A stretch of DNA of 25,812 bases from a virus, in the IMG/VR virus record IMGVR_UViG_3300031862_000041, positions 1-25,812 of that record; one strand, 5' to 3'. The position numbers and the translations under genes are program-made. The notes under the pieces are model-generated. The model saw only the letters and a list, made by a program, of their open reading frames with translations. It had not been told where the DNA came from and did not search any database. Shown in pieces: positions 2,978 to 11,079 of the stretch. Within the stretch, counting starts at the first letter, position 1. Each line of letters starts with the position of its first letter.

Positions 2978-3821
2978 CGCTATGGTGCGCACGTCGTATT
3001 CTCAATCCATGGCCTCAGTTTTCCGGCATCTGGGCGGCCATTTACTAAATATGGACTTCCGGGAGCTCGGCAAGCTCTACCTGTTCTTTCGCCGCTACCC
3101 GGTCCTCGCCCGCAAGGCTACCGCGCAGCTCCTGAACGATTTGGGCTTCGCTTGGCGGCCGCTGGCCGTCACAACCCTGGCCAGCCGCCTGATTATGCGC
3201 AATCCGCGATTCATCCTAAGCCGTATGCGCGTCCAAAAGACCGCGGCGGGCCCGATCGAGCGCCAGGCGGTCACCATAGGCAGTACCATCGTCAGGGGCA
3301 AGGGCGGCAATATTACCTTCGACGGCTTCTATAGCCTGCAGACAGGCCGAGATCCCCAGCGCAACAGGACGCTAGGCTTACTTGCCCGCGGCGGGGATAA
3401 GCGCGCCCAAGCCCGCCGGCAAGGCAAGCTCAACCCTGCGGATGATATTCCCAAGCCCCAAGATTGGGACGATATACCCCAGCCTTCATCCGCGCGCAGG
3501 GCGCAGGCCATGATCCGAGCGGTGGCTGATACTACGGCCTACGGCAAGCGGCTGCTGCTATCTAAGGGAGACAGCGCCGGCATGGCCCCTGGCCTATATC
3601 GGATCAAGCGCCGACGCGGCTATCTACTGCCCAGTACGGGGAGGAGCGCCCCGCAGCTTGCCATCGTGCAGCACTTCGGCCGCCGGCCTCGCGGGCAGCG
3701 CTGGCAGTGGATGCAAGCCTCCCTTAAGTGGCTGCTCGGCCACGCGCCGATAGCCAGCATGTGGCAGCGGGCGATCGGCAGGGTCACGCAGCAGGCAATC
3801 AGCCAATCGAAGGTACTGTGA
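2934..3821 (+). CDS. Phage structural-type protein, possibly tail/neck-associated (up to 295 aa)
   Basis: A basic protein of up to 295 residues. The central part (about 55-105: RRYPVLARKATAQLLNDLGF ... RNPRFILSRMRVQKT) has the pattern of a widespread phage family in which an N-terminal helix is followed by RN..F....IRV; these are generally annotated as tail or neck proteins. The C-terminal part (PGLYRIKRRRGYLLPS, then QHFGRRPRGQRWQWMQ) also resembles that family. The location before the terminase is unusual for a tail completion protein. The start is uncertain: ATG 2934 overlaps the upstream frame, and ATGs at 2982, 3009 and 3051 are also possible; none has a good ribosome-binding site. The identification is tentative. 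Confidence 0.65.
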   Translation: MGAKVAGPKRSRNLDAMVRTSYSQSMASVFRHLGGHLLNMDFRELGKLYLFFRRYPVLARKATAQLLNDLGFAWRPLAVTTLASRLIMRNPRFILSRMRVQKTAAGPIERQAVTIGSTIVRGKGGNITFDGFYSLQTGRDPQRNRTLGLLARGGDKRAQARRQGKLNPADDIPKPQDWDDIPQPSSARRAQAMIRAVADTTAYGKRLLLSKGDSAGMAPGLYRIKRRRGYLLPSTGRSAPQLAIVQHFGRRPRGQRWQWMQASLKWLLGHAPIASMWQRAIGRVTQQAISQSKVL

Positions 3822-3900
3822 CGATCCGCCGCCGGCCAAAGCGCGTCTTGTCGCGACGCCCGGCCATGCGGAAATAGCGCCGAATTGTGCTTGTAACATT

Positions 3901-3929
3901 TTGACAATTCGTGCACGCCGTGCTACATT
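3901..3929 (+). promoter_or_regulatory. Promoter of the packaging operon
   Basis: TTGACA (3901-3906), a 17-base spacer and TACATT (3924-3929). The predicted transcription start, about 7 bases past the -10 box, coincides with the GTG at 3937. The spacer contains the 8-bp palindrome CGTGCACG (3910-3917), which recurs in the spacer of the promoter at 8384, hinting at a shared regulator. Confidence 0.7.
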
Positions 3930-3936
3930 GTATTCC

Positions 3937-4497
3937 GTGGCCAAGCTCAACGCCGCCCAAGCAGAGCAAATCTATCCGGTATCCCGCATGACGATAGGCC
4001 GCTGGATCAAGAGAGGCTACCTCGCGGCGGATATTCATGGGCAATTCGATGAAGAAGCCCTAAAGGTCGCCTTGGCCTCCAAATCCTCGCGCGGCCGCAA
4101 GCTCAGAAGGCAAGCAGGTCCTGCTCCCGGCGGAAATAGCATAAATCGGCGATATACCTCAGCCGACGTGATCGAGGAGGGCCACCGGGTCCGCAATGCG
4201 CTTAATAAGGCCAAGGCTATTCATGAACAGCTGCGGGTGCGGATCGCCATAAGAAAGATGATTCCGTATAAGATCGCACAGCAGGCGTTCCTGCAGCTTG
4301 GCGGAGTGCTGGAGGTCCAATTTCGCATGTTTAGCGAGCGGGTCGGCGAAAACCTATACGCCGCCGTACAGTCGGGAGAGGCTCTGCCGGCTTTCCGGCT
4401 CCGGCTCCAACAAGAGATCGACGCCTCCATGCGCTCCGTGCTCGCCATGGTCCAGCAGTCCGTGGAGAGTATGCGCCAGGAGGAAGGCGCGCCTTGA
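3937..4497 (+). CDS. Terminase small subunit (Nu1-like), probably from a leaderless start
   Basis: Recognises phage DNA for packaging and recruits the large subunit. With the GTG start the protein is 186 aa. It opens AKLNAAQAEQIYPVSRMTIGRWIKRGYL-like, a MerR/Nu1-type winged-helix segment (about 3-30), followed by a basic linker and a long helical region (NALNKAKAIHEQLRVRIAIR) like the oligomerisation helix of Nu1-type proteins. A longer reading from TTG at 3901 is rejected because those codons are the promoter itself. No Shine-Dalgarno precedes GTG 3937; it lies at the expected +1, so translation is probably leaderless. It overlaps the next gene by 4 bases and begins an operon that ends with the large terminase. 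Confidence 0.8.
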   Translation: MAKLNAAQAEQIYPVSRMTIGRWIKRGYLAADIHGQFDEEALKVALASKSSRGRKLRRQAGPAPGGNSINRRYTSADVIEEGHRVRNALNKAKAIHEQLRVRIAIRKMIPYKIAQQAFLQLGGVLEVQFRMFSERVGENLYAAVQSGEALPAFRLRLQQEIDASMRSVLAMVQQSVESMRQEEGAP

Positions 4498-5180
4498 ATC
4501 TCAGTCTTATCCGATCATCCCTGCAGGCGGAAGGCGCTTGGCCATTCGATATCCACATCACTTGCTCGGGAGCCGAGGAGCTCCCGCTTGAGGCGCTAGA
4601 GGATCTTCAGGGCAATCTCAAACAGCGCACTGAGGAGGACATCATCAAGATCCTGCGCAGCATTCGTCAGTATGGCTTTAGCTTCCCCTTTTTCTATTGT
4701 TCCCTTGACGGGCATCGTTACTGCATGGATGGCCACGGGCGCATCATGGCATTATCCATTTATCGCAGGCTCGGCGGCTCGCTGCCGAGCCTGCCCTGTT
4801 GTCGGATTGAAGCGCGCGACCTGAAGGAAGCCAAAAACAAATTGCTGCGGATGAACTCGCGATATGGCGCCATCAACTCGGAGGCCCTGCTGGAGTTCAT
4901 CGATGACCTCGACCTTAATCCCGATGACCTATCTTTGCCGGACGTGGATATGGACGCGCTGGTCCCTCTGTCCTTAAGCCTCATCGATAACAGCCAAGAG
5001 GAGGATACAAGGACCGGCCGCACGAAGCCGGGTCACGGCGCAATGGTCGTCACCATCGGTACTTTTAGCGAACTGGTGGACATGGCAATCGGCAGCCAGA
5101 TAATCAAGCTCATCGGCGAGCGCTATGAAGGGCGGCGCATTGAAGGGTTCTTCCGCGAATGCCTGCGGTTTATTACCTGA
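4494..5180 (+). CDS. ParB/sulfiredoxin-fold protein
   Basis: A 228-residue protein with a ParB-like N-terminal domain: LEALEDLQGNLKQRTEEDI, a strand giving CSLDGHRYCMDGHGRIMAL (GHGR at 80-83, the ParB phosphate-binding signature), then LPCCRIEARDLKEAKNKLLRMNSRYGAINS and a tail with repeated acidic LDLNPDDLSLPDVDMDAL. This resembles the ParB domain found at the N-terminus of many phage DNA methylases, but no methylase follows; the C-terminal 60 residues are unassigned. The start is TTG at 4494, overlapping the small terminase stop (TTGA), with AGGAGG upstream. It overlaps the next gene by 22 bases, so the two are translationally coupled. Likely role: nucleotide- or DNA-acting accessory enzyme; not established. 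Confidence 0.8.
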   Translation: MNLSLIRSSLQAEGAWPFDIHITCSGAEELPLEALEDLQGNLKQRTEEDIIKILRSIRQYGFSFPFFYCSLDGHRYCMDGHGRIMALSIYRRLGGSLPSLPCCRIEARDLKEAKNKLLRMNSRYGAINSEALLEFIDDLDLNPDDLSLPDVDMDALVPLSLSLIDNSQEEDTRTGRTKPGHGAMVVTIGTFSELVDMAIGSQIIKLIGERYEGRRIEGFFRECLRFIT

Positions 5181-6385
5181 CCAGCCGCGAAGGCGCATCC
5201 ATGTATACGGCCTCCGCGATCCGCCACTTCATGCGGCTGGCCGGGATCGAGGAGGTGGCCGATCAGGAGCGGGCAGAGGCGATATGGTGCTCCATCTGTG
5301 ATCCCGATGAGCTACCGGTGCTCAGGCGCGCCAGGCAAATGGCCGCCGGTCGGCCGGTGATCATGGGAGGATTTGAAGCCTATTTCCCCTACCCTTATCT
5401 GGCATGGGCGGATTATATAGTCATGGGAGCGGCGGAGGGTTTCGTCGAGGCGTACGGCCGCGATCCGCGCGACGCGCTCGCCCTCGATAATGTAGTGAGC
5501 CGCCTCCGGCCCACGGGGGAACCGGACTACCGCATCCGCTATGACCGCTATCCGCTCGTGCGCATGGCGGGCGGCAATCGCTATTACTACATGGGCTCCC
5601 GGGGATGCCATCGCAAGTGCCGCTTTTGCGCCACGAGCTGGACGCAACCCTATAGCCGCAATAGCGATCGCGCCATCAGGGCCGCCGTGCGCCAGGTCGA
5701 GAGGCAGCCTCGCGGCAAACTGACTCTGATCGGCAACGATAGCCGCAATCTGATCAGCTCTCCCGCGGTGGCCGCCCAATCGGTGACCGTAGAGGACTAT
5801 CTGCGCGATCCCGAGCGCTATCGCTCAAGGATGCTGCATTTCGGGATCGAGGGTTGGACGGAGGAGGAGCGCCGCCGGCTGGGGAAGCCGATCCCCGATG
5901 ATCATCTGCGCGAGCTGCTGCGGGTGACGAAGAGGTTGCGGCAGAGGTGTGAATTGTTCTATATCGTTTTCCCCGACTGGGGCGAGGAGCGCCTTGCGCA
6001 TCTATATGACTTGCTGCCATGGGATGTCGAGCTGGCGCCGCAAATCTATCTGAAGATGACCTATTTCGACGCCTGTCCTCATACTCCGCTGGCCGATCAG
6101 GCCATAAGTCCGGTATACTGCGATACCCAGGGAATGTTCTATCGGCTTAATGCGCGGTGCAAGCGCATCCGCATTTTCCCTACGCGCTCGATGGCTCGAT
6201 CGGCCTGGCGGACGTGCCTGCACCGCGCGACGAGCGAGGAGGCCGAGCGTCTGGGCGTACAGCCCACGGATGTCAATCGGCCGGAATCGTTTGACTTGTT
6301 CCGCGCCCGTCTCAGGCAGCTGGGCCTTGAGCCCCTCCTCAGCCGGCACGTAGACTGGTCTGGCATTCACGTGAGCACGAGTTAA
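5159..6385 (+). CDS. Radical SAM protein with B12-binding-like N-terminal domain
   Basis: A 408-residue protein. Residues about 1-100 look like the Rossmann-type N-terminal domain of B12-binding radical SAM enzymes (VYYLTSREGASMY, PVIMGGFEAYFPYPYLAWAD, YIVMGAAEGF), but lack the DxHxxG cobalamin ligand motif. The [4Fe-4S] cluster motif CX3CX2C is Cys150, Cys154, Cys157 in GCHRKCRFCATSW, preceded by YYYMGSRG. The remainder fits a TIM-barrel radical SAM core, with additional Cys in the C-terminal part. The substrate is unknown. It lies between a ParB-fold protein and the large terminase, an odd position for a metabolic enzyme, and suggests a role in modifying DNA, the packaging machinery or a host target. 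Start ATG 5159 begins directly before the first beta strand, with no strong ribosome-binding site but coupled by overlap. Confidence 0.87.
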   Translation: MPAVYYLTSREGASMYTASAIRHFMRLAGIEEVADQERAEAIWCSICDPDELPVLRRARQMAAGRPVIMGGFEAYFPYPYLAWADYIVMGAAEGFVEAYGRDPRDALALDNVVSRLRPTGEPDYRIRYDRYPLVRMAGGNRYYYMGSRGCHRKCRFCATSWTQPYSRNSDRAIRAAVRQVERQPRGKLTLIGNDSRNLISSPAVAAQSVTVEDYLRDPERYRSRMLHFGIEGWTEEERRRLGKPIPDDHLRELLRVTKRLRQRCELFYIVFPDWGEERLAHLYDLLPWDVELAPQIYLKMTYFDACPHTPLADQAISPVYCDTQGMFYRLNARCKRIRIFPTRSMARSAWRTCLHRATSEEAERLGVQPTDVNRPESFDLFRARLRQLGLEPLLSRHVDWSGIHVSTS

Positions 6386-6386
6386 G

Positions 6387-8366
6387 ATGGACGAGCAATC
6401 CCGCGTCGCCTTCACGCCCGAGGAGTGGCAGATCGGGATCCAGAACCAACTGGAGATCCTGCGTATGCTCTGGCAGGAGCATCCCAACCTCACGGTGAGC
6501 GAGTATGCCGAAAAGAAACGGATAATGCCCCCAGGCACCCCTTACCCGGGCCAATGGCGCAACAGCCTGACACCCTATCTCGTCGAGCCCATGAATAATA
6601 TGTGTCCGCAATCGCCCATCCGTCATACCGTCATCATGGCCGGCGCCCAGGTCGGGAAAACCGCGGCCCTAGAGAACGTGCTGCTATATTGGATGGATTA
6701 CGAGCCGACGGCGATCCTATTCATAAGCGCCACCGATGATGCGGTGCAGGCCTGGGCCACCAAACGCCTGGAGCCCGCGCTGGACTCCTGCGGCCTGCGT
6801 GAAAAGTTCGCGGGAAAAGGTAGGCGTACCGGAGATAACGCATATGCCAAGGAGTTCTACGGTGGATGGCTACGCCTGGCCAGCGCGCAGGCCGCGGCGA
6901 GTCTCCGCGCGGATAGCGTGCGCCTGCTGATTCGGGATGAAATCGACGGGGCGCCCATAGAACTGAAGACCGGAGAGGGCGATTGGATGAAAGTCTCGGC
7001 GGCCCGCACGCGCGCTTGGGGCAGTCGAGCGAAGATCCTCGACGTATCTACGCCGAAACTTATCGATGCCTCGCTGATCAGCGAGGCCTATGAGGCGGGA
7101 GACAGGCGGAAGTACTTCGTGCCTTGTCCTTTCTGCGGCAGGGAGCAGATACTTGAATGGGAGCGTTTCCGGCCCGTGATGAGGGACGGCCTCCTTGAGG
7201 ACGCGGTATATGAATGCGAAAATCGGGAGTGTCGGGCGGAGTTGCATAATCACCACAAGACGCAGATGCTGGCGGCCGGCCGCTGGGTGCCGACCGCCCG
7301 ATCCAGCTCGTCGGACATACGATCATATTGGCTCCCATCGCAATACTCGCCCGTAGGCATGTATTCATGGTGCGACATGTATCGGAGTTATATCGATGCG
7401 CAGGATAATCCGACCGATCCTAAGCGCGGCATGCAGGCATTCGTGAATCTTTCCCTCGGTCTGCCCTACAAGGAAACCGGCACCCGACCCGATCTGCGCA
7501 AGCTGATCGCGCTCCGCGGGACTTACAGGCGGGGCGAGGTGCAATCCGGAGTGATCTATCTTACGGCCGGCATCGACGTGCAGCGCGGATCGGAGAAGGA
7601 CCCGAACTCGCCCCCGCGCCTGGAGATGGAGGTCCTCGGCCACGGCCGCGGTTATAAGACTTGGAGCACCGATTATCGGGTCTTCCGTGGGCCCATCGAC
7701 GACCCCTACGCCGGCGCTTGGGAGGAGCTCAATCAGTGGGCGCTGGAGGGAGGCCTAATCTATCGACGGGCCGACGGCGCGCAGTTCTCGCCCGCCATGA
7801 TCCTGGTGGACTCCTCCGACGGGAATGTCACCAACATCGTCTATGGCTTCTGCGGCCGCTGGCGCAGCACGTTCCCCTGCAAGGGCGCGAAGGTGATCAT
7901 CGCCGATCCCAAAAAACGCGAGGTGGGAGACGTGCCCGGGAGCATCTACAAGCGCTGGCGGATCGTGCAGATCGGGGACGCGGATCAAATCCTGTACGAA
8001 GTGAATACCCAGTTCTATAAGCAGCAGCTATACCGGAAGCTCAATACCATTCCGCGCCAGCCAACCGAGCCCCAGGCCAGCGGCTTCTGCGATTTTCCCC
8101 TGGATTACGAGGACGAGTACTTTGCCCAGCTCGCCTCAGAGGAGCAGTTGGCCGACGGCAGCTTCAGGAAGGTGCGGGAGCGCAATGAGAGCCTGGACTG
8201 CCGGGTCTACGCCATGTGCGCGGCCGACGTCTTCCTGATGGGGATTATTGAAGGCCTGCGGAAGGCCGCCCGTGAGGCCGGAGCAACGCTTAAGGCCTGC
8301 GAGGAAATCAAGAGCCCGCACGCCCTGAGCTGGCTGGAGCAGAGAATCAACATCGCTAAAACATAG
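6387..8366 (+). CDS. Terminase large subunit, GpA type
   Basis: The 659-residue packaging motor and nuclease. The Walker A-like GAQVGKT (86-92) and Walker B DEID (184-187) define the ATPase; a CPFC...CENREC zinc-ribbon-like set (Cys247, Cys250, Cys277, Cys282) follows; the nuclease domain begins around LTAGIDVQRG (Asp397), as in lambda gpA-family terminases. The C-terminal tail includes NESLDCRVYAMCA, also typical. The length is as expected. The start ATG is 1 base after the stop of the radical SAM gene, in an operon opened by the small subunit. Unlike the usual order, two extra genes separate the two subunits. Confidence 0.95.
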   Translation: MDEQSRVAFTPEEWQIGIQNQLEILRMLWQEHPNLTVSEYAEKKRIMPPGTPYPGQWRNSLTPYLVEPMNNMCPQSPIRHTVIMAGAQVGKTAALENVLLYWMDYEPTAILFISATDDAVQAWATKRLEPALDSCGLREKFAGKGRRTGDNAYAKEFYGGWLRLASAQAAASLRADSVRLLIRDEIDGAPIELKTGEGDWMKVSAARTRAWGSRAKILDVSTPKLIDASLISEAYEAGDRRKYFVPCPFCGREQILEWERFRPVMRDGLLEDAVYECENRECRAELHNHHKTQMLAAGRWVPTARSSSSDIRSYWLPSQYSPVGMYSWCDMYRSYIDAQDNPTDPKRGMQAFVNLSLGLPYKETGTRPDLRKLIALRGTYRRGEVQSGVIYLTAGIDVQRGSEKDPNSPPRLEMEVLGHGRGYKTWSTDYRVFRGPIDDPYAGAWEELNQWALEGGLIYRRADGAQFSPAMILVDSSDGNVTNIVYGFCGRWRSTFPCKGAKVIIADPKKREVGDVPGSIYKRWRIVQIGDADQILYEVNTQFYKQQLYRKLNTIPRQPTEPQASGFCDFPLDYEDEYFAQLASEEQLADGSFRKVRERNESLDCRVYAMCAADVFLMGIIEGLRKAAREAGATLKACEEIKSPHALSWLEQRINIAKT

Positions 8367-8383
8367 TCTCTCGGCAAACCCTC

Positions 8384-8412
8384 TTGAAAATACGCCGTGC
8401 ACGCGGTAGTAT
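8384..8412 (+). promoter_or_regulatory. Promoter ahead of the head-gene operon
   Basis: TTGAAA (8384-8389), a 17-base spacer and TAGTAT (8407-8412), with transcription expected near 8419, immediately before the ribosome-binding site GGGAGGGG. The spacer contains CGTGCACG, as in the packaging promoter at 3901. It lies in the 66-base gap after the large terminase gene, the first real gap in this operon. Confidence 0.65.
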
Positions 8413-8432
8413 TCTATTCAGGGAGGGGAAGC

Positions 8433-8744
8433 CTGTCCGACCAATCGCAGCCGACCACCGCCGCAACGCTCTCGCGCCTGCCGACCACCCTTGCTCAGTT
8501 CTACCAGCAGCAGCTCGCCTACTGGCAGGGCCAACTGCAGGCCCTGCAGTCGCAGCTCACCATGCTCATGGCCTCGCCGGTGGAATCCTACAGCTTCTCC
8601 GGCGGGGAGGGCCAACAGTCGGCCAAAAGACGCGACCTGCAGCAGGTCCAGAAGGCGGTGATCTTCGCCGAACGGCAGTATGGCTACTACTGGAAAAAGC
8701 TCTACGGCTACGGGAACGTGAACATGAGCCTGAGGAGAAAATGA
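8433..8744 (+). CDS. gpW/DUF6148-like small head protein, apparent CTG start
   Basis: A 103-residue helical protein, SDQSQPTTAATLSRL... QFYQQQLAYWQGQLQALQSQ, then VESYSFSGGEGQQSAKRRDLQ and a second long helix ending QYGYYWKKLYGY. Small proteins of the form helix-beta-helix just before the portal (gpW or DUF6148 type) form head completion or portal-adjacent structures. The frame contains GTG at 8397, but that lies inside the promoter. The only start downstream of the transcription start is CTG 8433, which has GGAGG (8422-8426) at 6 bases; so a CTG start is proposed. Overlaps the next gene by 4 bases (ATGA). Confidence 0.65.
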   Translation: MSDQSQPTTAATLSRLPTTLAQFYQQQLAYWQGQLQALQSQLTMLMASPVESYSFSGGEGQQSAKRRDLQQVQKAVIFAERQYGYYWKKLYGYGNVNMSLRRK

Positions 8745-9019
8745 TCCGCGTACCCGTGATCCACTCCGAGGACATCACCGGCCTGGATCTCACCGGGCGG
8801 CCGGTGGAGCTGGAGTTCGGCACCTTCTGCGGCCGGCCCGTGTCAGATCTTTCTCCGGAGTCTCTTCCGCGCTCGGTGCTCTCCGACATCGAGCGGGCGA
8901 TCATCGACCTGGGCTGGCGGGCTGGCGTGCGCGAGTGCAGCATCACGGTCAGCAGGACGGCAGACAAGGAAAAGAAAAGGAACGAGACGCACATGAAGGT
9001 GAGGCTGACGTATGCATAG
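8741..9019 (+). CDS. Small uncharacterised protein (92 aa)
   Basis: Starts at ATG 8741, overlapping the previous stop (ATGA), with TGAGGAGA just upstream. The protein begins MIRVPVIHSEDITGLDLTGR, then VELEFGTFCGRPVSDLSPES, and ends with a basic stretch and KVRLTYA. No family recognised. It resembles an alpha/beta single-domain protein, and as part of the block between terminase and portal it may be a minor head or regulatory protein. Overlaps the next gene by 8 bases, so it is translated as part of the same operon. Confidence 0.65.
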   Translation: MIRVPVIHSEDITGLDLTGRPVELEFGTFCGRPVSDLSPESLPRSVLSDIERAIIDLGWRAGVRECSITVSRTADKEKKRNETHMKVRLTYA

Positions 9020-9215
9020 CCCGATACGATTTGCGATGATCATGGCCGCCGTGCTCTCCTCGGCCGATAGGGCCTACTTCGATGCAAAGATGCCGGCGCT
9101 CCAGCTCCCGCCGAAGCCCGAAGGTTACGGCGTGCACTTGAGCAAGGCCGAGCGCAGGGGCCGCTCGTGGCAGGAACTACAGACTATCCGCGCCGAGAGG
9201 AAAGCCCATGCCTAG
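9012..9215 (+). CDS. Small uncharacterised protein (67 aa)
   Basis: Starts MHSPIRFAMIMAAVLSSADRAY with a mildly hydrophobic N-terminus, then a basic C-terminal helix (SKAERRGRSWQELQTIRAER). It overlaps the previous gene by 8 bases and the portal gene by 8 bases (ATGCCTAG). The context, a small gene wedged directly before the portal, suggests a small head-associated factor. The first half could be a weak membrane or signal-like segment, but it is too short for confidence. Confidence 0.6.
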   Translation: MHSPIRFAMIMAAVLSSADRAYFDAKMPALQLPPKPEGYGVHLSKAERRGRSWQELQTIRAERKAHA

Positions 9216-11079
9216 GCGTCCATGGGATGCCCGCGATCCGGACTACATCAAGGCCCTGGCCGCGATAAACCGCGCCTACCCGGGAGTGCCCGTCACCCTG
9301 CCCCCGGGTCAGATGTTCAAGCACCCGATCCGCCAGGCGCTGCGCTTCGCCGTCAATAGGGCCATGGCCCGCTTCTTCCCGCAACCGGGATCGGCCGATG
9401 AGCCGCGCCTGCGCGCCGACTACTCCGCGGGAGCGGGCGCCGGAGGATTTCTCACCGGCTGGTCGCGCTCCACCGGCGGCAAGTGGATGGGCGGGCAATC
9501 CAAGCCCATCGGGGGCCGGATCACCTGGCATTGGGGCCTGCGGCAGCAGGCGCGGGACATCGTGGAGGATTCGGTCCATGCCTACGGCTTGGTGCACCGC
9601 AAGGCCGACACCGTGATCGACCGCGGCCTCGCGCTCTCCGCCATGCCCATCGCGGGCGTCCTGGGCATCAGCGAGGAGGAGGCCGACGGGTGGGCGCAGA
9701 AGGTCAACCAGTCCTTCGAGCTGTGGGCGCGCTCCAAGAGCGCCCACCGCTCGGGACTCTGGAATCTCAAGCAGGCCATGCACCAGCTCATGGTGGCCTC
9801 TACCCGCGACAACGATCTCTTCGTGCGCCTGTACTACTCCCAGCGGCAGGATTTGCTCTCGCCGCTCCAGTGGGAGATCATCGACGCCAACCAGATCCGC
9901 GGTGACGCCCTCACCTCCACCAGCATCATGCCCTACAAGTTCTACGACGGAATCGTGCGTAACGGCGACGGGAGCGAGCGGGCGTACAAGATCTGGATCC
10001 AGCCGCCCGAGGATCCGCTGGGCTCCCCGCTCGTCGAGGTTACCGTCCCCCGCGTCGGCGAGAAAAGCGGCCGCGTGATGATGATACACTGGTTCCGGCC
10101 GGAGTACTCCGGACAGGGCCGCGGCTACTCGCAGCTCGGCGTGAGCATGCAGGAGTTCGAGAATCTTGAGGATTACATCCTCTCGATCATCAAGAAAGCG
10201 ATCAACCAGTCGCAGCTCGTCGGAATCGTCACCAACCAGGAGGCCCCGCCCTCCAACCCCTTCGAGAACCTCGGCGTGCCTCCGGCCGGCCCCGCGCCGC
10301 TCCAGGGCTTCGGCTCGGTGAGCGCCCCCCTCGGGGTGGCGATGACCGACAGCCTGGGCCTCGCCTCGCAGGTGAACGTGGTGCCCCTGGAGGAGGCCGC
10401 CTTCAACGTTCCCGGCTCTACGCTGGTAACCTCCGTCGGCCAGGGCGACAAGCTGGACTTCCTGCAGAACAACGCCCCGGGTCCTGAGTTCGACCGCGCC
10501 GTGGACGCCTTCCTGACTCCGCTACTGGCGGCGCATGGCATGAGCATCGAGCTGTTCAAGATGAAGTTCGAGGCCTCCTACTCCGCGGCCCGTGGCGCCC
10601 TCATGGTCGTGTACCGCAACATCGCCATGGAGCGGGAGGCGCTGGACACCGGCTGCCTGTCGGTGATCTACGAGATGTGGCTCGCCTGCGAGATCGCCGC
10701 CGGCCGGCTAAGCTGCCCCGGCTGGGCCGATCCCCGCCTGCGAGCCGCCTGGTGCGCCCATCAGTTCATCGGCTCCCCGCCCGTGCAGATCGACCCGGTT
10801 AAGGAGGCCGACGCGCAGATGAAGTATCTCCAGATGTCGGCCACCACGATCGAGCAGGTCACCCACGAGCGCGGCGGGGGAGACGCGAAGGCCAATCTCG
10901 CCCGCAACAAGCGCGTGTTCGCTGAACTGCCCGTCCCGCCCTGGGCCGTCAAAGCGCCCTCGCCCTTTAACGCCGGAGGGCTCGAGAAGCAGAGCGGTGA
11001 TGAGCGCTCTCCGGAGGCAAGCGAGGGCGACGGAAACCATAACGGCAAGAGGCCTGTGAAGCTTGCGTCCATGAGGTAG
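9208..11079 (+). CDS. Portal protein, lambda gpB family
   Basis: A 623-residue portal, the dodecameric DNA entry ring. It shows the conserved pattern of this family: LRQQARDIVEDSVHAYGLV near residue 115, then NLKQAMHQLMVASTRDNDLF, LQWEIIDANQIRGD, MMIHWFRPEYSGQGRGYSQL, and a helix-rich C-terminal region (LAAHGMSIELFKMKFEASYS, then DPVKEADAQMKYL). GAGAGGA is upstream of the ATG. Size agrees with gpB-type portals. The gene normally sits directly upstream of the capsid protease; here more than 3 kb of lysis-type and unknown genes separate them. Confidence 0.93.
   Translation: MPRRPWDARDPDYIKALAAINRAYPGVPVTLPPGQMFKHPIRQALRFAVNRAMARFFPQPGSADEPRLRADYSAGAGAGGFLTGWSRSTGGKWMGGQSKPIGGRITWHWGLRQQARDIVEDSVHAYGLVHRKADTVIDRGLALSAMPIAGVLGISEEEADGWAQKVNQSFELWARSKSAHRSGLWNLKQAMHQLMVASTRDNDLFVRLYYSQRQDLLSPLQWEIIDANQIRGDALTSTSIMPYKFYDGIVRNGDGSERAYKIWIQPPEDPLGSPLVEVTVPRVGEKSGRVMMIHWFRPEYSGQGRGYSQLGVSMQEFENLEDYILSIIKKAINQSQLVGIVTNQEAPPSNPFENLGVPPAGPAPLQGFGSVSAPLGVAMTDSLGLASQVNVVPLEEAAFNVPGSTLVTSVGQGDKLDFLQNNAPGPEFDRAVDAFLTPLLAAHGMSIELFKMKFEASYSAARGALMVVYRNIAMEREALDTGCLSVIYEMWLACEIAAGRLSCPGWADPRLRAAWCAHQFIGSPPVQIDPVKEADAQMKYLQMSATTIEQVTHERGGGDAKANLARNKRVFAELPVPPWAVKAPSPFNAGGLEKQSGDERSPEASEGDGNHNGKRPVKLASMR

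Follow-up and report, generated by a model that had tools for sequence, protein, structure and literature searches.

Phage ParBc genes are frequently found with the gene for CmoX, an enzyme verified to carboxymethylate cytosine, or fused to those of DNA methylases, and the role of ParB-fold proteins beside phage DNA-modifying enzymes has been called unknown (PMC12783734). Another phage enzyme, the TET-associated glycosyltransferase (TAGT, PF20691) of T6, attaches a sugar to the DNA of the phage (PMC13216743). Here, we describe a 25.8-kb IMG/VR virus record (IMGVR_UViG_3300031862_000041; hereafter, the window), a contig fragment in which the genes for a ParB-like protein (P0001) and a radical S-adenosylmethionine (SAM) protein (rSAM; P0002) lie together between the genes for the terminase small (TerS) and large (TerL) subunits. 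We consider it probable that the two genes form a module for modifying phage DNA, with a radical enzyme in place of the methylase that usually partners ParB. We know of no enzyme of the cobalamin-type rSAM class that acts on DNA. While the combination of ParB with a DNA-modifying enzyme is already known, a radical SAM partner with a B12-type domain is apparently new, although priority is not proven: we found no description of a ParB–rSAM pairing in the literature searched, and an earlier mention may exist.

The four genes follow one another on the plus strand, each abutting or overlapping the next (Table 1). The TTG start codon of the ParB-like gene overlaps the TerS stop (TTGA), the rSAM ATG overlaps the ParB stop by 22 nucleotides (nt), and the TerL ATG lies one base past the rSAM stop codon TAA. 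An earlier note on this DNA had placed both genes in one overlapping operon between the terminase subunits, and its open reading frame (ORF) coordinates, strands, and overlaps all proved exact when we re-checked them. It had also stated that the two terminase genes normally adjoin, which holds within the same lineage for L003 and L005 (L-numbers denote related loci or contigs compared with the window), where TerL is 55-56% identical to that of the window; TerS stands immediately before TerL in L003, and one overlapping ORF of 100 amino acids (aa) lies between them in L005. Since no rSAM gene was found in L003-L005, the closest TerL relatives, the ParB–rSAM pair is an optional cassette in the TerS/TerL slot. 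The same slot holds other rSAM genes in two related loci. L138, whose TerL is closely related to that of the window, has the order TerS–rSAM–TerL, with an rSAM gene at 980-1789 (269 aa) and no ParB found at this rSAM locus, and L236, whose TerL is 50% identical, has the order TerS–ParB–rSAM–two small ORFs–TerL. The methylase that might be expected beside ParB was reported missing in the earlier note, and our profile scan of the contig, which is a fragment, likewise detected neither PF01555 nor PF00145.

P0001 matches the ParB-like families PHROG 498 (E 4e-13) and PHROG 620 (E 1e-10) and has no significant Pfam match. When its structural model was compared to known folds, the highest scores were those of KorB (Z 10.0), Noc (Z 9.8), sulfiredoxin (Srx; Z 9.5), and ParB (Z 9.1). 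The model comprises an N-terminal ParB-like domain and a C-terminal beta-beta-alpha-alpha module; judging by sequence, a Vibrio phage ParB that stands alone appears to share this module. The GHGR signature described for this gene occupies residues 80-83, and within the corresponding G-H-x-R box of the aligned ParBs, G80 is conserved in 100%, H81 in 77%, and R83 in 85%. The modeled fold and this box are consistent with membership of the ParB/sulfiredoxin superfamily, whose folds bind nucleotides. The only PADLOC match of P0001 is to the ParB portion of a model for a type II methylase. P0001 is most closely related to ParBs that stand alone or are linked to a methylase (L010-L014) rather than to the partner of the closest rSAM, and the rSAM therefore occupies the slot of a methylase. 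A ParB beside a terminase is in itself ordinary, with ParB–methylase fusions lying upstream of terminase in Porphyromonas phages and in the Bacteroidales loci L018-L053; the unusual element of this locus is the radical SAM partner.

The CX3CX2C motif assigned to the second gene is present as GC150-HRK-C154-RF-C157, and its three cysteines are invariant in all 53 aligned members. In the radical SAM superfamily, this motif binds the SAM-cleaving [4Fe-4S] cluster. Judged by this motif and by its match to PF04055 (E 1.1e-8, 35.8 bits against a cut-off of 29.5), P0002 is a predicted member of that superfamily. An AlphaFold2 model of P0002, built on a 53-sequence alignment, found its best structural match in MgmA (9ccb; Z 23.6, root-mean-square deviation 3.3, 340 residues aligned, residues 3-365), a cobalamin-dependent C-methylase, which speaks for a DNA-modification module. 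The family profile reaches 9ccb by sequence as well (E 9e-20). The next folds were AprD4, MiaB (Z 18.8), RimO (Z 17.9), TsrM, CysS, and OxsB, with Z scores of 17-19, and TokK was also matched. TIGR04013, a B12-binding rSAM family, is matched by 38 of the 53 members, and most of the rSAM family has no PHROG match. The presence of MiaB among the closest folds, a weak similarity to TIGR00089, and a tRNA-Cys gene in the contig would suit an enzyme that modifies RNA, such as host or phage tRNA, in the way of MiaB or RlmN. We regard this as very unlikely, since we saw no TRAM domain, the aligned rSAM members conserve the three radical-SAM cysteines and no others, unlike MiaB-type enzymes with their second set, and an RNA target would leave the linkage to ParB and terminase unexplained.

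Exact-peptide scans of viral and genome contigs with P0001 or P0002 alone, and a tblastn search of phages and plasmids with P0002, found nothing. A degenerate DNA pattern of RGC..KC.FC run over viral contigs returned 119 stretches, including the true relatives L063, L090, L113, and L068, and a profile made from these four and P0002 yielded 78 loci, which formed 63 clusters at 70% identity. Because these relatives were chosen by rSAM sequence alone, their neighboring genes provide an independent readout. In 51 of the 59 clusters that have at least 500 nt of upstream sequence, the ORF just ahead of the rSAM, in the same orientation, is ParB-like, a count made with a ParB profile to which many of these genes had contributed; 47 of these ORFs overlap the rSAM gene, 15 of them by exactly 4 nt. 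In an independent PHROG scan, 50 of 53 upstream genes, that of the window included, matched PHROG 498, a ParB-like family in which the members with an annotation are DNA methyltransferases. The eight clusters without an upstream ParB are mostly low-scoring, distant members. As a control, a different phage rSAM family with the same pattern (23 sequences) had an upstream ParB in 0/20 cases (Fisher p 1e-12 compared to 51/59), and the initial pattern scan alone gave 6/6 compared to 0/20. A large third group with shorter rSAM proteins had an upstream ParB in 17/72 cases, so the pairing with ParB reaches beyond the P0002 family. Within this wider cluster, ParB lies ahead of a second phage rSAM family, of the HTSRGC.RKCGFCMV type (L080, L085, L110, L127, L143, and L160), with TerS-TerL after it in L080 and L085. 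Cellular matches, found in 398 genomes of one phylum, are open frames of 552-696 aa, longer than almost all of the phage proteins; four candidates were scored per genome in this search, which says little on prophage copies.

Two of the relatives carry larger islands of modification genes. L173, the closest rSAM relative (44% identity), has the order ParB–TAGT–ParB–rSAM–TerS–TerL (3733-9018), and L226 has the order ParB–TAGT–ParB–rSAM–ParB–C5-methylase–TerL (3553-10031). Each enzyme in these islands has its own ParB in front; near-identical ParB copies precede TAGT and rSAM in both loci, and a related ParB precedes the methylase in L226. Across the loci, the enzymes that have a ParB partner comprise N6-methylase fusions, a Dam-like gene (L012), PAPS reductase (L045), an SPL-like rSAM (L040), TAGT, C5-methylase, and the P0002-type rSAM, and ParB looks like a generic partner common to several enzymes. 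The statement of the earlier note that phage ParB domains accompany DNA-modifying enzymes agrees with the PHROG 498 fusions and with CmoX (PMC12783734). SPL-like radical SAM genes are found beside a ParB-methylase (L040 5147-7098) and near a solo ParB (L014 5995-7971), and in L011 (655-2258), a solo ParB gene overlaps the next one, which encodes 351 aa with a Walker A motif and lies ahead of a terminase-like gene. A ParB adjoins a PAPS reductase/DUF3440 gene in L045 (3622-5303), a pair that we take to be of the IbrB/IbrA type, and in L237 (4369-6977), a PAPS reductase gene takes ParB's place directly before a distant family rSAM.

A sub-threshold viperin-type match in L173 (E 0.006) and the nucleotide binding known for the superfamily of P0001 would be compatible with a different role, in which the rSAM makes a free small molecule or nucleotide, such as a viperin-like anti-defense or defense product, and ParB is a nucleotide-binding regulator. 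This appears highly improbable to us, given that PADLOC returned no defense match for P0002, that the closest folds are of methylase and methylthiotransferase types, and that the genes sit in a packaging operon, not in an early or moron locus.

In a sequence-seed search, TerL was found within 2 kb downstream of rSAM in 38 of 60 loci. Pfam confirmed 40 of the 41 TerL candidates (Terminase_6N, 23; Terminase_3, 11; GpA, 6), and the ParB-positive loci missed by the seeds contained nine proteins of the TerL_nuclease type. The earlier note had proposed to check whether other phages also have the pair beside their terminase genes; with ParB upstream in most clusters and TerL usually following, this check was strongly passed. 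As four terminase families lie beside the pair, the ParB–rSAM unit moves between phage lineages as a cassette and remains at the terminase operon. TerS comes first in the window, and the pair comes first in many other loci.

The strongest rival to DNA modification is that the rSAM modifies a packaging or head protein (terminase, portal, or ParB itself) in the manner of MgmA or RimO. The target of MgmA is a glutamine of methyl-coenzyme M reductase, and that of RimO is ribosomal protein S12. A protein target would fit the scores of these two folds and the position of the rSAM gene inside the terminase operon in most relatives, and ParB itself could be the conserved target. Nevertheless, we judge it unlikely. 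The terminases beside the pair belong to four unrelated families, which makes it hard to envisage one protein target conserved among them all; the constant partner of the rSAM, ParB, elsewhere goes with DNA-modifying enzymes; and two islands hold a DNA glycosyltransferase and a C5-methylase.

Several observations weigh against a DNA-modification module. The PF02310 B12-binding profile scores 13.7 bits in P0002, under its cut-off of 32.1, and DxHxxG is present in 1 of 53 members and absent from P0002. The top fold, MgmA, modifies a protein, and the next folds act on an aminoglycoside and on tRNA. TAGT occurs in 2 of 50 relative contigs (L173 and L226 only) and C5-methylase in 3 of 50, and on these counts, we rejected a chemistry that needs prior C5-methylation or TAGT. 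ParB and rSAM distances are not significantly correlated in a mirror-tree comparison (Spearman 0.08, p 0.10, at saturated divergence), an absent signal that fits with the nearest ParBs of P0001 not coming from the closest rSAM. In Vibrio phages, X29 among them, a ParB stands alone just before TerS–TerL, with no enzyme beside it. Finally, DNA as the rSAM substrate, like the timing with packaging put forward in the earlier note, is something we infer, whereas the link to DNA modification in that note is supported by context (the ParB partners and the ParB–TAGT–ParB–rSAM islands).

With regard to the low PF02310 score, the B12-type N-terminal fold proposed for P0002 is supported by structure (the MgmA match) and not by profile. 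A B12-binding-type Rossmann domain is recognizable by fold at the N terminus, where AprD4 and MiaB score like TsrM, OxsB, and TokK, and P0002 keeps the GG (70-71), G90, GG...P, and D.V..G motifs of B12-type domains. AprD4 has a B12-type domain yet does not use cobalamin, TsrM and TokK use cobalamin without DxHxxG, and several true class B members lack DxHxxG; P0002 may thus use cobalamin or may not. Solo ParBs such as that of X29, together with a weak correlation between ParB and TerL distances (0.19, p 0.01) and the close TerL relatives without the pair, could also mean that ParB is a packaging or DNA-segregation factor itself and that the rSAM is an accessory gene that merely travels along and does something unrelated. 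We find this quite unlikely, since translational coupling of the rSAM to ParB is nearly constant in many phage lineages and each enzyme gene in L226 and L173 is preceded by its own ParB.

In the DNA-modification module that we favor, the ParB-fold protein would bind the DNA of the phage, probably serving as an adaptor whose DNA binding depends on a nucleotide, and would recruit its translationally coupled rSAM partner. The rSAM would cleave SAM to a 5'-deoxyadenosyl radical and attach a group, through C-methylation or a comparable reaction, to a DNA carbon that would otherwise be inert. As TAGT and C5-methylase are missing from most relatives, the DNA that it acts on is probably unmodified. 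Newly replicated DNA would be marked before or during packaging, a timing suggested by production of the rSAM from the terminase operon, and the benefit would most likely be restriction evasion in the next host. More tentatively, the pair might represent a widespread system in which a ParB adaptor directs a cobalamin-type rSAM to unmodified phage DNA, giving a new carbon-linked base or sugar modification that is independent of a methylase or hydroxymethyl precursor. If this is true, P0002 and its relatives would be the first enzymes of the cobalamin-type rSAM class acting on DNA, and dozens of uncultured phage lineages would have a radical-chemistry route to altered DNA that methylase-centered annotation has overlooked. 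There would then be a new nucleoside to seek, a new way past restriction, and a starting point for working out the function of the ParB-fold proteins that accompany DNA-modifying enzymes in phages, for which these two small genes are a ready test system.

Table 1. Features of the terminase operon in the window
Feature	Position	Strand	Support
Candidate promoter TTGACA-17-TACATT with embedded CGTGCACG palindrome	3901..3929	+	10/12 consensus; upstream of TerS-ParB-rSAM-TerL operon
Terminase small subunit (helix-turn-helix)	3901..4497	+	PHROG 57 E 1.7e-4; HTH_17 E 8e-4; syntenic TerS in L003/L005/L236
ParB/sulfiredoxin-fold protein (predicted), 228 aa	4494..5180	+	PHROG 498/620; AlphaFold2 pLDDT 86.5
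Radical SAM enzyme (predicted), 408 aa, B12-type N-terminal domain and radical SAM barrel	5159..6385	+	PF04055; AlphaFold2 pLDDT 93.5; MgmA 9ccb
CX3CX2C codons (Cys150, Cys154, Cys157)	5606..5629	+	Translation
Terminase large subunit, GpA type	6387..8366	+	E 1e-155; PF05876 E 3e-62, PF20454 E 4e-50

Since TTG 3901 forms the -35 box of the promoter-like site ahead of the operon, it is unlikely to be the TerS start, for which GTG 3937 is a possible alternative. CGTGCACG is present only twice in the contig (3910 and 8396), each time inside a promoter-like spacer, and the second of these promoter-like sites (8384-8412) lies past TerL, ahead of the next head operon. GTGCAC elements, each flanked by TACC/GGTA half-sites, are found at matching places in L003 (~605 and ~3360) and L005 (~95 and ~3027), and the palindrome sites look like a putative late-gene operator. 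Another promoter-like site, TTGACAAATCCCCACTGTGGGGATATATTAT at 2007-2037, lies upstream of an early gene and encloses the palindrome CCCCACTGTGGGG, which is likely a repressor operator. At the left end, positions 1-42 resemble the 3' half of a tRNA-Asn with a GTT anticodon loop, a probable attachment site just ahead of an integrase gene, and this arrangement makes the window look like one end of a prophage-type genome. The phage-borne tRNA-Cys (GCA) gene lies at 1832-1905 on the minus strand and has an Rfam match too, and a GAA trinucleotide repeat (~1483-1514) falls in an AT-rich non-coding stretch of a contig that is otherwise 63% GC.

Compared to known systems, the pair shares individual elements with each. 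CmoX and ParBc likewise combine a ParB gene with a phage DNA-modifying enzyme (PMC12783734), but CmoX is a C5-methyltransferase homologue that uses carboxy-SAM, and no radical enzyme is found there. TAGT hypermodification systems meet the pair in L173 and L226, where TAGT adjoins ParB–rSAM, whereas 48 of the 50 relative contigs lack TAGT and none was detected among the 20 window proteins scanned with Pfam. ParB and PAPS-reductase pairs, such as that of L045, also join a ParB-fold protein to an enzyme of nucleic-acid-modification type, although their enzyme chemistry differs (PP-loop). The SPL-like rSAM genes near ParB in L040 and L014 again bring radical SAM and ParB together in phages, but they encode short proteins of a different family without the B12-type domain and, in L014, lie on the opposite strand. 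MgmA (PDB 9ccb) and the B12-binding rSAM proteins of TIGR04013/TIGR04014 are the closest solved fold and profile relatives of P0002, which is ~16% identical to MgmA; MgmA, however, acts on a protein in methanogens and has no ParB partner. Phage ParB-domain DNA methyltransferases (the PHROG 498 fusions, e.g., of Porphyromonas phages) share with the window the same ParB-like N-terminal family, of PHROG 498/620 type, and the same place by TerS/TerL. In the window, no methyltransferase domain is linked to this ParB, which is a separate protein, and a B12-domain-class radical SAM enzyme stands in the methylase's place.

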